Shown here: piece after piece, positions 6,960 to 14,009 of the stretch
Position numbering within the stretch: position 1 is the first letter of the stretch
Layout: each line of letters opens with the position of its first letter
Virus record (IMG/VR): IMGVR_UViG_3300025319_000005
Coordinates: 1-64,000 of that record
Length of the DNA: 64,000 nucleotides
Source: a virus
Reading direction: 5' to 3' (one strand)
Made by a program: the position numbers and the translations under genes
Notes under the pieces: generated by a model
Told to the model about the DNA's origin: nothing
Databases searched by the model: none
Seen by the model: only the letters and a program-made list of their open reading frames with translations

Positions 6960-8066
6960 TTAAGACAACACAGATTCAAATACATTCCTATTAGCTTTGA
7001 TAATGGATTTAAGCTCTGATTTTCCACGATGTATTGTTGCTTTTATTGTTCCCAAAGGAATATTAAGCTCTTCTGCGATTTCGTTATAGGATTTCTCTTC
7101 AACAAAACGTTTATTCATAATAATACGGCAATTTTCTCCCAGTTTATTTACCGCCTTATTTATTAAAGATTTTTTTTGCTCTGTAATTAATATTTCTTCT
7201 GGATTAAGTGTTCCATCATCTTTCACATCAAATGAAGAATATTCATCCCCTTCGTTTCTCATTTTCTCAGAAGAAACTCCAGCACTCAAAGAAATTGTTT
7301 CCAATCTTTTTTTACGTGTGTAATCAATTAAAAAATTAGAAGCAATACGGCTTATCCAGCTATTAAACGTAAACGTCGGTTTGTACTGGTGAAGTTTTTC
7401 GAACACTCTAACGAATAACTCTGCAGTTAGGTCATCTGCCAAATCTTTATCAAATTTTAAACTTGAAGTATATTTATAATTTATTATAGCATAATAACGT
7501 TTATATAAAACAGAAAATTTTTCTTTTTTTCCAGATAAAATTTCATTTACAGCGTTAATATCTTCTTGATCTATTTTAGAAAAAACTTTTGTAGCAACAG
7601 AATTTTCTTTCGTTGCGACTTCTTTAATTATTTGTTCAACTTCTGTTACGGTTAAAACTTCCTCTGGTTTAGTTAAAACTTCTTTAAGAACCGGTTTAAC
7701 TTCTTTTTCAGGAGTAACAGTGCTGGATTTTGCAGGTTTAACCAATTTATTGATTTTATAATTTTTTTCTTTAGAAGAAGCAAATGTAACTTCAATCAAT
7801 TTATTTAATGAATTAATTCCTGACTTTAAACAATAACCCAAAAAAACTATGTTTTCTCCACTTAAATTTAAAATATCAACTATTCCAATTCTATCATTCG
7901 ATATTTTTTTAGCACCTGATTTTGATGGGTATGACCAATCTTTCCCTTTTCGCATAGCTTTGGTAAGTGGAAATACTCTTACGTTTAACTTATCATTTTT
8001 TACTTTCCCCATTAAAGAATATAATGGAGCCAATTTGATTGCTGAAATTTTTCCTGTGTTTTTCAT
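6960..8066 (-). CDS. ECF-like sigma factor with N-terminal extension
   Basis: 368 aa. The C-terminal half is an ECF-type sigma-70: region 2 near residues 185-255 (DLTAELFVRVFEKL, then FNSWISRIASNFLIDYTRKKR) and region 4 with its helix-turn-helix near 325-355 (YNEIAEELNIPLGTIKATIHRGKSEL). The first roughly 110 residues are a separate domain also found alone in the gene at 8672; between them is a Lys/Glu/Val-rich linker. It should direct host RNA polymerase to phage promoters. The conserved promoter here has an AAC-type -35 box (TGTAACA) as ECF factors prefer, and one copy (8627) heads this operon, so positive autoregulation is likely. Confidence 0.85.
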   Translation of the reverse strand: MKNTGKISAIKLAPLYSLMGKVKNDKLNVRVFPLTKAMRKGKDWSYPSKSGAKKISNDRIGIVDILNLSGENIVFLGYCLKSGINSLNKLIEVTFASSKEKNYKINKLVKPAKSSTVTPEKEVKPVLKEVLTKPEEVLTVTEVEQIIKEVATKENSVATKVFSKIDQEDINAVNEILSGKKEKFSVLYKRYYAIINYKYTSSLKFDKDLADDLTAELFVRVFEKLHQYKPTFTFNSWISRIASNFLIDYTRKKRLETISLSAGVSSEKMRNEGDEYSSFDVKDDGTLNPEEILITEQKKSLINKAVNKLGENCRIIMNKRFVEEKSYNEIAEELNIPLGTIKATIHRGKSELKSIIKANRNVFESVLS

Positions 8067-9460: not shown

Positions 9461-9500
9461 TTATAATGTACTATACAAGAAAAAATTGAGAGGTGTTACA
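9461..9500 (-). promoter_or_regulatory. conserved phage promoter
   Basis: Full 40-bp element; heads the genes from about 9447 to 8672. Confidence 0.85.
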
Positions 9501-9518: not shown

Positions 9519-10001
9519 TTATGCTATTGATAATTTGCCATTCATTGTTTTTACTATTTGTTCCAACGGAGATTCTATTTTTTGAATTATAGTATTATTA
9601 ATTAAACTTTGAGATTTTATGTAATCATTCTTTTTATTTTGATAATATATTTTTTGCTTATTATTTAAAATTAATCTTTTTTCTTTAATTTTTTCTCTTT
9701 GTTGTTTTAATACTAATCCACAAACTCCTTTGTATAATAAATTTAATCCACTATTTAAACAATCAAATAATTTTATGTAATATGATTCAGCATCATCCAA
9801 TTTTTCTTTTTCGCAAATATGTATTATTTCAAAAATGTGGTTCTCGTATTTATATTTTTTTAAAGAGTTATATAGTTGCCTTTGACCTTTACAATTATAT
9901 AACTTATAAGCATTCCATCTTTTTTCTATATTTATAGATTTACCTATATAAATTTTTCCGTTTGGTGATGTTATTTTATAGATTCCACAAGTTTGTTTCA
10001 T
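9519..10001 (-). CDS. GIY-YIG endonuclease
   Basis: 160 aa. N-terminal GIY-YIG domain: CGIYKITSPNGKIYIGKS at residues 5-22, then R at 28 and an E near 71 that fit the catalytic pattern. The C-terminal half is Lys/Asn-rich, as in homing endonuclease DNA-binding tails. The start overlaps the stop of the integrase gene by four bases, so the two are probably translated together. A selfish homing role or a part in mobility of the adjacent cassette region is plausible. Confidence 0.85.
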   Translation of the reverse strand: MKQTCGIYKITSPNGKIYIGKSINIEKRWNAYKLYNCKGQRQLYNSLKKYKYENHIFEIIHICEKEKLDDAESYYIKLFDCLNSGLNLLYKGVCGLVLKQQREKIKEKRLILNNKQKIYYQNKKNDYIKSQSLINNTIIQKIESPLEQIVKTMNGKLSIA

Positions 10002-10855
10002 AAATGAATATTACTAATAGGAGACGCAATTTTACTTATTAAATTATGTGAAATATGAGTGTAAATTGAAGTTGTTTTTACAGAAGAATGACCTAACAAT
10101 TTTTGAATAAGATTTATATCGACACCATTTTCAACCATATGAGTAGCTGATGTGTGTCTCATTAAGTGAGTATAAACTCTTTTGTTATCTATCCCGGCTT
10201 TCTTTGCCAATTGTTTAATTACATTACCAACGCTGTGTTCGGAATATTGTTCAGCATTATTTTGTCCAGTTAAAACATAAACAAACTGGTCTTTTTTTAT
10301 ATTGTACTCTTTGCAATAGTCTTTTAATATTATAATCAATTGTTCATTTAATCCAACTTGACGGTCTTTATTTCCCTTTGCTTGAATTACATTTATAATC
10401 ATTCGGCTCCGGTCAATGTGTTCCCATTTTAAATTTAATAATTCTGAAACCCGGAGGGAACAAGAATAAAGTAGGGCAAGAATCACTTTATGCTTTTTGT
10501 TTTCGCAGGCGTCAAACATTCGTTGGATTTCATTTACAGATAAAACAATCGGCAGTTTTTTGTTTTTCCTTGGACGTTCTATGTATTTGAATTTTTCAAT
10601 TCCGACCCTTGCAATTTTTTCATAATAAATTTTAATAGCTGAATGGTATCCTGAATGTGTTGATGGTTCCTTAAACTGACCAAGAAACTCAATTATCATT
10701 GTGGTATTAATTCTGTCTGGGTGCGTTACCCCTTTCTTTTCAAAATAAGCAAGAAATCCAGTGAAGTTGCTACAATAGTTAGAAACTGAATTTGGCGAGT
10801 AATTTCGGAACTCCATATAATTTCGGAGCTTCTGTACTGGGTCTGAAATTTCCAT
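9998..10855 (-). CDS. tyrosine recombinase / integrase (XerD-like)
   Basis: 285 aa. N-terminal SAM-like core-binding domain (residues 5-85) and a C-terminal catalytic domain with the expected residues: R in CSLRVSELLNLKW, K in the beta-hairpin (AKGNKDRQV), HLMRHTSATHM, LGHSSVKTTSIYTH with the nucleophilic Tyr. Length and motifs are those of a simple XerC/D-type recombinase; the extra helix typical of integron integrases is not evident. It abuts a stretch of gene cassettes separated by attC-like palindromes (11-13.9 kb), which makes it the obvious candidate for moving them. Confidence 0.9.
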   Translation of the reverse strand: MEISDPVQKLRNYMEFRNYSPNSVSNYCSNFTGFLAYFEKKGVTHPDRINTTMIIEFLGQFKEPSTHSGYHSAIKIYYEKIARVGIEKFKYIERPRKNKKLPIVLSVNEIQRMFDACENKKHKVILALLYSCSLRVSELLNLKWEHIDRSRMIINVIQAKGNKDRQVGLNEQLIIILKDYCKEYNIKKDQFVYVLTGQNNAEQYSEHSVGNVIKQLAKKAGIDNKRVYTHLMRHTSATHMVENGVDINLIQKLLGHSSVKTTSIYTHISHNLISKIASPISNIHL

Positions 10856-10964
10856 GTCTAAATGTATTGATTTTATTAATACTTCAATAAGTGTGCCACA
10901 TATATAATGTTATGTTCAATTGTTTGTTGTTTAATTTTAAAAGCCACCGCACTCCTTTGTTTTT
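10856..10964. other. non-coding junction with inverted-repeat end
   Basis: Separates the methyltransferase stop from the integrase start. It holds one arm of the 26-bp inverted repeat (10917-10942) preceded by GTTATGTT, the same bases found at the border of the attC-like site at 12138 in the opposite orientation. Confidence 0.5.
10917..10942 (+). repeat. 26-bp inverted repeat, left arm
   Basis: CA(A/G)TTGTTTGTTGTTTAA continuing TTTTAAAA, present here on the plus strand and at 12088-12113 on the minus strand with a single mismatch. The two arms bracket the methyltransferase cassette. Confidence 0.7.
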
Positions 10965-11795
10965 TCAAAACAATAAAAGGTTTGGTTTGTACTCATTAAT
11001 TCTGTTTGTCGCTAATTCAAAATATTCCTGTTTCTTTTCCATAATAATATAATTCCGCTTTAAGTTTTTACACACAACTCCAACCGTTCCACTTCCGCCA
11101 AACGGGTCCAACACAACATCGTTTTCATTAGTAAATGTTTTCACAAAAAACTCAACCAACTTTTCGGGGAATACTGCACTATGTTCCATCTTTGAAGTAA
11201 ATTGGTTTGTTACATTATTTGCGTTAATAACATTTGAAGGTCGTGCAAATTCAATGTCCTTAAAATTATCTCTATCCACTACCATTCCGCTTCCGTTGGT
11301 TGGTGTTTTACAATTCTTTCTAAATGCCCTGCTTTTTGTTTCCTCACTTACAGTTGTTCCACAAGCAAGTGCATTAAATGTAATTTGGTTTGGATTGTCT
11401 TTTGTAAAATGATACACAGGCTCAAATCCGTTTTTCATTCTCCCTTTCGTTCCAGTTGGGAAAGCATTTTTTGTCCAACAATATTCTTCCACAAACATAA
11501 ATCCCGTTTCTCTTTTCAGTCGGCAAATCAAATCATAAACATACAGGCTTCGTTCTCCTTTATTGGTGTGTGGCTTTATATTTAAAAAGAAACTTCCAGT
11601 AGGTTTTAAAATCCTTTTTATCTCTGCTCCAATAGGTAAAAACCAATCAATATATTCATTCTCGTTTGTACCTTCGTATGTTGCCTTTCTGCGTTCAGCA
11701 TAAGGCGGTGATGTAAAAACCAAATCAATACTATTAGTATCAATGGTTTTCATCAATTCTAAACAATCTCCTAAATAAACTTTATTGCTTTCCAT
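10965..11795 (-). CDS. site-specific DNA methyltransferase (beta class)
   Basis: 276 aa. Catalytic motif IV TSPPY at residues 29-33 precedes the SAM-binding motif I DPFGGSGT near residue 233, the permuted order of beta-class N4-cytosine/N6-adenine methyltransferases. Full-length for the class. No cognate restriction gene is beside it, so it is an orphan modifier, as common in phages for protection against host restriction. Overlaps the small gene upstream by one base and shares its cassette. Confidence 0.9.
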   Translation of the reverse strand: MESNKVYLGDCLELMKTIDTNSIDLVFTSPPYAERRKATYEGTNENEYIDWFLPIGAEIKRILKPTGSFFLNIKPHTNKGERSLYVYDLICRLKRETGFMFVEEYCWTKNAFPTGTKGRMKNGFEPVYHFTKDNPNQITFNALACGTTVSEETKSRAFRKNCKTPTNGSGMVVDRDNFKDIEFARPSNVINANNVTNQFTSKMEHSAVFPEKLVEFFVKTFTNENDVVLDPFGGSGTVGVVCKNLKRNYIIMEKKQEYFELATNRINEYKPNLLLF

Positions 11796-12037
11796 TAATC
11801 AACCGATATTGAAAGTATGCCCTTTCTTCCGTGTTTCACAAGTTCTTCTCCATCTTCATAAGCAACGGATAAGTGATGATTTTCATCAAGTATTTCTTCC
11901 TTATCAAAATCAATTATTCCATCAGGCAATTCATAAATATCATCTTCTTTGATAATATCTAACTGTTCCTGAGTTAATGGTTCTTTCAATTCGTAACGAA
12001 CCTTTACTGTTTTTGTAACATCAATGTAATTTTTCAT
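11795..12037 (-). CDS. small acidic partner of methyltransferase
   Basis: 80 aa, acidic, unrecognised. Directly precedes the methyltransferase with a one-base overlap and lies inside the same inverted-repeat-bounded cassette. The two genes have probably moved as a pair. Confidence 0.7.
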   Translation of the reverse strand: MKNYIDVTKTVKVRYELKEPLTQEQLDIIKEDDIYELPDGIIDFDKEEILDENHHLSVAYEDGEELVKHGRKGILSISVD

Positions 12038-12087
12038 ATTATATTTATTTTATAGTTATTAATAAAAAGCCAACACACGCCACCTTT

Positions 12088-12113
12088 TTTTAAAATTAAA
12101 CAACAAACAACTG
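12088..12113 (-). repeat. 26-bp inverted repeat, right arm
   Basis: Partner of 10917-10942 in the opposite orientation, about 1.2 kb apart, bracketing the methyltransferase pair. Confidence 0.7.
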
Positions 12114-12137
12114 CCCCTCGCTCGAAAACCCTACGCA

Positions 12138-12222
12138 CCAACATAACACAGGCTACACGCAATAGCCCCACAAGCCCTCACACATCCAAAGCTACTGCAA
12201 GTGTAGCCCCGTCCGTTAGTTG
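12138..12222 (-). repeat. attC-like imperfect palindrome A
   Basis: On the minus strand CTAACGG...GGCTACAC opens and GTGTAGCC...GTGTTATG closes a long imperfect hairpin; the arms pair over GGCTACACxxGCAxTAGC with a few unpaired bases on one side. This asymmetry, with AAC at one end and GTT at the other, is the layout of integron attC sites. Local GC is clearly higher than the surroundings. Confidence 0.55.
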
Positions 12223-12288
12223 CTATTTGTTTTCTTAAAATTAAAAGGCTCACGCTCGCTTAATTTTTTGCAAAAATTTAAAAGGTTA

Positions 12289-12780
12289 CTAACCTCCACT
12301 CATTGGTGTTGTATCAACTGAATAAAATCTCGGATAAGGTGATGTGTTCAAATCTAGCATGAACTTTAAATCAACTAATTTGTCTGGCAAAGTGGAAGGT
12401 ATAATTAAATAAAATTTCCATTTATCTTCTTCATTTATACTTCCTCGTTGCAAAAATAACTCACGTAAATTCCCAATATTTATAAATTGTATTTCTGTAA
12501 TAATTAACTTTTGGTCAATTTCTATTTTAAATTTTGTTTTAAATTTTGTATTCTTTATGTTTTTTTGAACACATACAAATTCCAAATTTTGACAATCTGG
12601 CTGAGAAAGGTCTATAAATTCATTCTCAGCAACTACTTTATCTTCCCACCTTTTAGGACGATTAATGCACTCTATTGTGTAATAGTCGTTATCAGCACCT
12701 ATTATTCTTTTCAATTGTGCAATCGTTATAATTGGCTTCACAAAGTAATTATTTCCATCAATTTTTATTCTAATATCCAT
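12289..12780 (-). CDS. ubiquitin-like (multiubiquitin-type) protein ending in Gly-Gly
   Basis: 163 aa from MDIRIKIDG. The first half matches the pattern of bacterial multiubiquitin-type beta-grasp domains: I-x-I-DG-x-x-Y-x-V, then TIAQLKRIIG, then E-x-x-IDLSQP and a final hydrophobic strand. A second, more diverged domain follows from about residue 80 (FKIEIDQKLIITE ... NLRELFL). The protein ends TTPMSGG: a terminal di-glycine, as required for activation of ubiquitin-like modifiers. Two-domain proteins of this type act with E1, E2 and JAB partners in bacterial anti-phage operons, but no such partners are visible here. Lies in a cassette between attC-like sites A and B. Confidence 0.55.
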   Translation of the reverse strand: MDIRIKIDGNNYFVKPIITIAQLKRIIGADNDYYTIECINRPKRWEDKVVAENEFIDLSQPDCQNLEFVCVQKNIKNTKFKTKFKIEIDQKLIITEIQFINIGNLRELFLQRGSINEEDKWKFYLIIPSTLPDKLVDLKFMLDLNTSPYPRFYSVDTTPMSGG

Positions 12781-12952
12781 AGTATCTTTTCCATCCTTTA
12801 ATTTGTTTATAATTATCAATGTAGTGAAATCCGTTATCTCGTTTTTTCACTAACTGTTTTTTTTCGTTTCCATTTTCATAAATAGCTATAAACTCAAACC
12901 CTTCATCGTTCGGTAAATAACTAACTGGATAAAATTTGCTAACACACGCCAT
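12770..12952 (-). CDS. small cassette protein upstream of Ubl gene
   Basis: 60 aa, unrecognised; aromatic-rich (FHYIDNYKQIKGWKRYYGY). Its ATG lies in ATGGCGTGTGTTAGC, a sequence also found at the same place in the two neighbouring cassettes, so start and leader are part of the cassette border. Overlaps the Ubl gene start by 11 bases. Confidence 0.55.
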   Translation of the reverse strand: MACVSKFYPVSYLPNDEGFEFIAIYENGNEKKQLVKKRDNGFHYIDNYKQIKGWKRYYGY

Positions 12953-13003
12953 CTCTTTTTGTTTATTTATTTTTTACTGCCTCACGCTCGAAGGGCTTAC
13001 GCA

Positions 13004-13088
13004 CCAACCTAACACCATGTTGGTCGTAAGTTTGCAACGTACTAACCGCTTAGGCAAACCTACGCCAACATTTGTACGTTGTACGCAA
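13004..13088 (-). repeat. attC-like imperfect palindrome B
   Basis: Arms 13008-13034 and 13055-13081 pair over ATGTTGG-CGTA-GTTTG with unpaired bases on one arm. The outer box on the minus strand is GTTAGGT, an exact GTTRRRY. The 70 bp that follow (GGTGCGTA, CTTCGAGCG, GGCGTGTGTT) are shared with site A. Confidence 0.6.
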
Positions 13089-13134
13089 GGTTTAAAAATA
13101 AAGGATCACGCACTTCTTAAAGTTTTTCAAACTT

Positions 13135-13443
13135 TTAAGAGATTTTAATCCGTTTACGTTTTGTTTCCCAATCTTTCTCTCCAATTATTTTAGCCGATTT
13201 ATAAATTCGGTTTTCTTTGTCAGCGCAAACATACATTCTGCAATGTGGTTTATCCGAATAATGCCCCTTTACAGCCATCACAGGAAAGTATTGCGTTTCT
13301 TCCATTACAACAACGTGATACATATATTGTTTTCGTTTTCCAATCATAAAATGAAACACTTTTAATAAATCACCAATCAATATCTGTTTACCAGTTTGGT
13401 CGTAGTACGTATTATCTTTCAACTTTTCTAAATATTCTTTCAT
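13135..13443 (-). CDS. hypothetical cassette protein, 102 aa
   Basis: Basic C-terminus (WETKRKRIKIS). The segment GDLLKVFHFMIGKRKQYMYHVVV suggests a small all-beta fold. MKEYLEKL is chosen as start, avoiding overlap with the neighbour that stops at 13446. Second gene of the cassette between attC-like sites B and C. Family not recognised. Confidence 0.65.
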   Translation of the reverse strand: MKEYLEKLKDNTYYDQTGKQILIGDLLKVFHFMIGKRKQYMYHVVVMEETQYFPVMAVKGHYSDKPHCRMYVCADKENRIYKSAKIIGEKDWETKRKRIKIS

Positions 13444-13445
13444 AA

Positions 13446-13667
13446 TTAGTTCCATTTAAAAGGGTTTGTATAATCAATCTCTTTCCAAAAACCAACAACG
13501 CCAAACATCACAATACCTACTATTATTATCAAAACAATAGTAATGTAACTAAGTGGATTATATGGATTAAATCTTCTTGCTGTTGAATATCCTTTACCTA
13601 AGTGAGGTGTTCTTTTTTTATTTGATACTTCCTGTAGAATGAAAAGGAATTTTAATATATTTTTCAT
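13446..13667 (-). CDS. small membrane protein in cassette
   Basis: 73 aa from MKNILKF. One strong transmembrane helix (YITIVLIIIVGIVMFGVVGF) near residues 40-60. A longer frame from 13718 (MVACGGRK) would begin in the conserved cassette border and is less likely. Function unknown. Confidence 0.6.
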   Translation of the reverse strand: MKNILKFLFILQEVSNKKRTPHLGKGYSTARRFNPYNPLSYITIVLIIIVGIVMFGVVGFWKEIDYTNPFKWN

Positions 13668-13732
13668 AATTTGTTTTAAAATGTAAGTACTATGTTTTCT
13701 GCCTCCACACGCCACCATTTATTTTTAAACCC

Positions 13733-13822
13733 AGCGTACAACACCAAATAGGACGCAAGGCTACCTAACTGCTTACTATTCATTACGCTTATACGCCCTG
13801 TCGCCTATTTTTGTACGTTAAA
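13733..13822 (-). repeat. attC-like imperfect palindrome C
   Basis: Arms 13735-13760 and 13796-13821 pair as CGTACAA-AATAGG against CCTATTT-GGTGTTGTACG with extra unpaired bases on one arm. It starts 14 bp after the stop of the gene ending at 13836, as expected for a cassette recombination site. Confidence 0.6.
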
Positions 13823-13835
13823 AATCTCCAACTCA

Positions 13836-14009
13836 TTATTTATATGGTGTTTTCGCCAATACTCTTTTTATCATTTTAATACTTTTCATCACTTGCCTGT
13901 CTGCACAAGTTTGTCCTTCAACTTTTCTGCTTCCAAGAATATTGGCAACTATCCTCAAAGTATCTTCTATTTGTTCGGCTTCAAACTTGTGTATTATTAA
14001 TTCTTCCAT
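13836..14009 (-). CDS. hypothetical helical protein
   Basis: 57 aa from MEELIIHKFEAEQIEDTL, mostly helical, basic C-terminus. An upstream Met at 14057 would overlap the preceding gene by 40 bases. Its stop lies right beside attC-like site C, so it may be the first cassette of the series. Confidence 0.6.
   Translation of the reverse strand: MEELIIHKFEAEQIEDTLRIVANILGSRKVEGQTCADRQVMKSIKMIKRVLAKTPYK

Follow-up and report, generated by a model that had tools for sequence, protein, structure and literature searches.

The window analysed here, bases 1-64,000 of the 212,632-base virus record IMGVR_UViG_3300025319_000005, carries a gene for a 163-aa protein that is very probably a divergent ubiquitin-like protein of the Multi_ubiq type. 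By its surroundings, this gene belongs to an integron-type gene cassette, and it stands apart from the conjugation enzymes that accompany its known relatives. Bacteria have only recently been recognised to use ubiquitin-like conjugation as one layer of their immunity, and a lone ubiquitin-like gene on a virus could mean interference with, or borrowing of, a host protein-tagging defence. Among the explanations weighed below, a decoy or competitor for host conjugation enzymes is rated first, with a probability of about 0.37. The features of the region are collected in Table 1.

Table 1. Genes and attC-like sites in and around the cassette array (window positions).
Feature	Position	Strand	Remarks
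GIY-YIG nuclease adjoining the recombinase	9519..10001	(-)	
XerA/XerC-like tyrosine recombinase beside the array	9998..10855	(-)	Below the integron integrase cut-off
Cassette: 80-aa ORF and DNA methyltransferase (N6_N4_Mtase)	10965..12037	(-)	
attC-like hairpin that ends the cassette, directly downstream of the ubiquitin-like gene	12122..12228	(-)	Covariance model 84.3 bits, E 9.4e-20 (training sequence); DNA fold z -3.0
Ubiquitin-like protein gene, 163 aa	12289..12780	(-)	Multi_ubiq relative; residues 1-75 firm ubiquitin-like domain, 76-163 possible second; end SGG
60-aa ORF; overlaps the ubiquitin-like gene at its start	12770..12952	(-)	No relatives found
attC-like hairpin, upstream of the 60-aa ORF; terminates the cassette before it	12988..13091	(-)	70.4 bits, E 5e-16 (training sequence); DNA fold z -3.5
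Cassette: two small ORFs (90 and 106 aa) without assigned function	13135..13718	(-)	
Third attC-like hairpin	13723..13830	(-)	42.2 bits, E 1.8e-8 (training sequence); DNA fold z -2.8

A remote relative of multiubiquitin proteins

Two overlapping minus-strand ORFs, of 60 and 163 aa, occupy positions 12289-12952. The longer one begins with an ATG at 12780, has its stop at 12289-12291 and encodes the C-terminal end ...RFYSVDTTPMSGG. Its sole Pfam match is Multi_ubiq (PF14452), at 13.7 bits and E 0.075, below the curated cut-off of 24.5 bits; the alignment is in register, placing residues 4-61 on profile positions 2-59 of 69. An independent profile, built from 26 ubiquitin-like units of ten plasmid Multi_ubiq proteins with the query left out, scored residues 1-75 at 20.9 bits, a value reached by none of 5000 shuffled sequences (best shuffle, 10.1). 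When the same profile was run over the 1759 frames of the record, the 163-aa protein was the only match (E 2.4e-5), the next frame lying at E 3; by this profile and these shuffles, homology to known Multi_ubiq members is significant. An enlarged profile of 39 units gave residues 1-75 a score of 23.3 bits, again equalled by 0 of 5000 shuffles, and hhalign assigned the same residues a probability of 91% (E 1e-6). In a phmmer comparison of the protein with 4293 frames of other loci, the top four matches were all Multi_ubiq. The best place found by tblastn in 72,556 plasmids was a multiubiquitin protein of Nostoc, a match insignificant by itself (E 9), and the two proteins share 33% identity over 64 aa in a pairwise alignment. 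Matches to HIV protease in a sequence search of the PDB were dismissed as chance. The earlier note had assigned the protein to the multiubiquitin type and proposed a profile search for it; this assignment is upheld by the profiles, shuffles, hhalign and phmmer as a remote relationship, the proposed search being significant with the independent profile but falling under the Pfam cut-off. Since tblastn against phages, plasmids, viral contigs and one genome per species returned no close homologue, there is no signal of selection or conservation for the protein, which counts against the decoy reading below. The two scans of genome collections likewise gave no relatives.

The earlier note also described two beta-grasp-like segments. 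For the first, residues 1-75, the shuffle tests just given make a ubiquitin-like domain firm; the second is less secure. Residues 76-163 can be aligned to a ubiquitin-like unit along nearly their full length, and their hhalign score just exceeds those of all 400 shuffles; in HMMER, 12 of 5000 shuffles did as well against the 26-unit profile and 197 of 5000 against the 39-unit profile. A second ubiquitin-like domain is possible. A single-sequence model of the whole protein (pLDDT 40) has the order strand-strand-helix-strand in residues 3-72, and a fold search with this low-confidence model placed two multi-ubiquitin proteins, 9d5b and 8u38, at the head of the PDB matches, with E about 0.5 and, for 8u38, a probability of 0.80. 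Modelled alone, also from a single sequence and with low confidence, the second half is all-beta and not ubiquitin-like (pLDDT 59), and the fold search with it matched nothing notable.

The terminal SGG, which the earlier note had read as a match to the multiubiquitin type, is a real Gly-Gly end, of a kind that 2 of the record's 819 open frames with 60 or more residues have. It is not diagnostic, however, as the known Multi_ubiq proteins compared here end in a single Gly (TTEG) or in other residues, or run into an E2 domain. Tails vary among those without a fused E2, and in two of them an RFF strand is followed by TTEG; in several E2-fused forms, a similar Gly is retained ahead of the linker. 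The tail RFYSVDTTPMSGG resembles RFFTGKKTTTEG of the Nostoc and Rhizobium relatives. The terminal Gly is in keeping with the tails of those Multi_ubiq relatives that end in Gly, and a strict Gly-Gly is not the mark of the family. The C-terminal Gly is a putative conjugation site.

An attC-bounded cassette in a virus record

The attC-like sites were aligned as a set of eight, comprising the three of this record and five from other viral contigs. They share the conserved ends CTAACG... and ...GTGTTATGTTGGTGCGTA, and 9 of the 22 pairs of the stem show compensatory changes on both sides. Conserved ends and a covarying stem are what is expected of attC sites, and the elements are read as attC-like for this reason. 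As single-stranded DNA, each site folds better than its shuffles. A covariance model run over the record recovered the three sites, all in the island, and no further strong match; because the model was built with these very sites, the informative point is the absence of others. The resulting array spans window positions 10909-13840. Lying between two such hairpins, the ubiquitin-like gene and the 60-aa ORF form an integron-type gene cassette, with recombination as a putative property. The mobile-looking cassette of the earlier note is thus supported by two attC-like sites that bound the genes and by the nine compensatory pairs of their stem.

The two ORFs of the cassette lie in different frames and share 11 bases. 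Such overlaps are frequent among translationally coupled genes, and the arrangement makes coupling of the 60-aa ORF to the ubiquitin-like gene probable. The smaller ORF matched nothing in the searches made, tblastn included. Near-perfect inverted repeats flank two of the cassettes, at 10917-10942/12088-12113 (96%) and 13078-13102/13718-13742 (92%), so that each of the two is bounded by inverted copies of the sequence beside its attC-like site.

With other cargo, the attC-like element recurs in no fewer than six further viral contigs (L022, L025/L033, L026, L028, L029 and, in part, L036), and ubiquitin-like genes were found in none of the other attC-bearing viral contigs. A scan with a 17-base motif pointed to 15 contigs, a number near the estimated chance level; the attC-like element surrounds the motif in only seven of these, and the remaining contigs were discarded. 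The DNA of the N6_N4_Mtase gene is 71% identical to a copy in contig L029, which also bears an attC-like site. The neighbouring recombinase was rejected as an integron integrase, reaching 165.8 bits against the 265-bit cut-off of TIGR02249 with the model matched in two separate stretches. It scores better as XerA-like, likewise under the cut-off. For a complete integron, the array lacks an integrase over the TIGR02249 cut-off.

The largest frames of the record match ribonucleotide reductase and helicase, and a PHROGs comparison of these largest frames found no structural hallmark, so that the viral nature of the record rests mainly on its IMG/VR classification. The best matches of one of its helicases are cyanophage proteins, at about 31% identity. 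A sigma-factor-like protein with an N-terminal extension is encoded at window positions 6960-8066 and has a single distant relative, in viral contig L021. Because this protein gave one distant virus relative only, there is no empty site for comparison. A 62-base repeat (TTATAATGTACTATACAAG...GAGAGGTGTTACAAA), which is perhaps a phage promoter, occurs at window positions 9461, 15559, 16361, 17900 and 19327, is absent from the inside of the cassette island, and has many more partial copies in contigs L002 and L003.

Missing partners and possible functions

In 17 of 18 plasmid loci, the known Multi_ubiq genes adjoin an E1 (ThiF) gene, together with an E2, a DUF6527 or a JAB-type protein. Bub operons have been described as a family of putative immune pathways, and Bub and Bil operons together as known or putative immune pathways (PMC13373217). 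We infer that the plasmid operons are Bub operons, judging by the genes they contain and by the naming of multi-ubiquitin chains as BubA or BilA in the PDB. The 163-aa gene has no such layout, with adjacent E1 (ThiF), E2, and DUF6527 or JAB genes, and the whole record holds no E1, E2 or JAB protein over cut-off (PF00899, PF14464, PF14462 and PF14461, two E2 families among them), in agreement with the earlier note, which had the gene standing alone. A PF14452 search of the record itself also returned no match, missing the divergent 163-aa copy; very divergent partners would therefore escape Pfam models too. A weak ThiF match at 132190-132360 (11.2 bits) was dropped as an E1 candidate, as it contains an internal stop codon. 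Two or more tandem ubiquitin-like units are usual in Multi_ubiq proteins without being universal: the multiubiquitin gene of Rhizobium phaseoli (locus L042, 2212-2722) encodes one unit only (88 aa) and follows a small DUF2188 gene. This layout resembles that of the 60-aa ORF and the ubiquitin-like gene, and the small proteins do not match each other.

Under the decoy reading, a cassette with a divergent ubiquitin-like gene and its coupled 60-aa ORF would have been delivered to the phage, and the protein would be used in trans during infection. There it may tie up the E1/E2 enzymes that a host defence operon of the multiubiquitin (Bub/Bil-like) kind encodes, whether it competes as a substrate or binds them non-covalently, and conjugation by the host defence would be blunted. 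Use in trans is the most likely mode, given a Gly-ending tail and a record in which E1, E2 and JAB were not recognised. The neighbouring methyltransferase cassette could plausibly supply an anti-restriction gene, and the array as a whole may serve as a swappable store of counter-defence. The fully specified form of this proposal, namely an orphan phage decoy that arrived on an integron-type cassette and, by substrate mimicry, captures the E1/E2 enzymes on which host multiubiquitin (Bub/Bil) immunity depends, is more doubtful than the general one. Several points count against a decoy: support is weak for the second domain, which bears the tail and whose low-confidence model is not ubiquitin-like; the analysis traced neither a host nor a host E1/E2 pair; and the literature searched yielded no phage decoy of the ubiquitin-like kind.

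Ranked just behind the decoy, and nearly as likely, is a passenger cassette, whose gene would have been caught by chance from the host gene-cassette pool with no gain to the phage, and perhaps without expression. The location of the gene in an attC-bounded array suits this origin, as do its lack of relatives in phages or viral contigs, the recurrence of the attC-like site in six or more further viral contigs that yielded no ubiquitin-like gene, and the mixed cargo of published phage cassettes (PMC9892861). The 163-aa frame is nevertheless intact and overlaps an upstream ORF, which speaks against a mere passenger. Useless DNA, moreover, is usually purged from phage genomes. It is rather unlikely, but less so than the explanations that follow, that the protein acts by binding without being conjugated, for example in a toxin-antitoxin-like or scaffold pair with the 60-aa ORF. 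The two ORFs share a cassette with an 11-base overlap, a multi-ubiquitin protein can form filaments according to the title of PDB entry 9d5b, and the record has no conjugation enzymes over cut-off, although such a role leaves the Gly-ending tail unexplained and the 60-aa ORF matches nothing.

Improbable, in turn, is a modifier that works with host enzymes and defends the infected cell from competing phages. An E1/E2 copy in the host could use the 163-aa protein, and an immune role is on record, known or putative, for the Bub and Bil operons (PMC13373217); this explanation nonetheless calls for a match to the host enzymes, and neither a host operon nor lysogeny is in evidence. Slightly less probable again is a chance resemblance of a protein that is not ubiquitin-like at all. 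The sub-threshold Pfam score and the poor structure models would be in keeping with chance, whereas the 0 of 5000 shuffles, the next frame of the record at E 3, and the convergence of tblastn, pairwise alignment, hhalign, fold search and phmmer on Multi_ubiq speak against it.

A decoy would matter for the understanding of phage counter-defence. The literature searched yielded no account of a phage protein acting as a block on conjugation itself, and a phage that encodes a relative of the modifier on its own offers a candidate for such a block that can be tested directly. If the proposal is true, phages would draw counter-defence genes from the integron cassette pool, and substrate mimicry by the decoy would add a new kind of counter-defence.

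Comparison with known systems

The closest known proteins are the Multi_ubiq members of Bub-type operons in Nostoc (WP_179070496.1), Rhizobium phaseoli (WP_064826237.1) and Spirosoma (ADB42778.1). The 163-aa protein shares with them a ubiquitin-like unit that is about 70 residues long and aligns in register with theirs, including the IDG, IT..QL..L.G and IDL positions, and with those of Nostoc and Rhizobium an aromatic RF end strand followed by a short Gly-ending tail. Unlike them, it is far more divergent, falling under the Pfam cut-off, has no E1, E2, DUF6527 or JAB neighbour, and is encoded on a virus within a cassette. The multi-ubiquitin protein of Methylobacterium brachiatum and Ubl-BilA (8u38, 9d5b) have tandem ubiquitin-like domains and provide the best fold matches of the low-confidence model, matches that are not significant (E about 0.5) at a sequence identity of 14-24%.

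The phage T4 protein Vs.4 antagonises the related CBASS defence by sequestering cGAMP (PMC10097602). As is proposed for the 163-aa protein, it is a phage protein directed against a defence that uses ubiquitin-like conjugation; in contrast to the proposal, it sequesters cGAMP and is no ubiquitin-like decoy, which counts against the decoy reading. The cassette setting has its nearest parallel in the phage-borne attC clusters (CALINs) of Qi et al. 2023, whose orphan methyltransferases were suggested to be anti-restriction genes (PMC9892861). The section consulted mentions no ubiquitin-like cargo, and the recombinase of the present array differs in being Xer-like. Both settings present attC-bounded phage cassettes with N6_N4 methyltransferases among the cargo. 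Phage-borne attC cassettes are already known; the new element is the combination, an orphan Multi_ubiq relative carried as an integron-type cassette in a phage.
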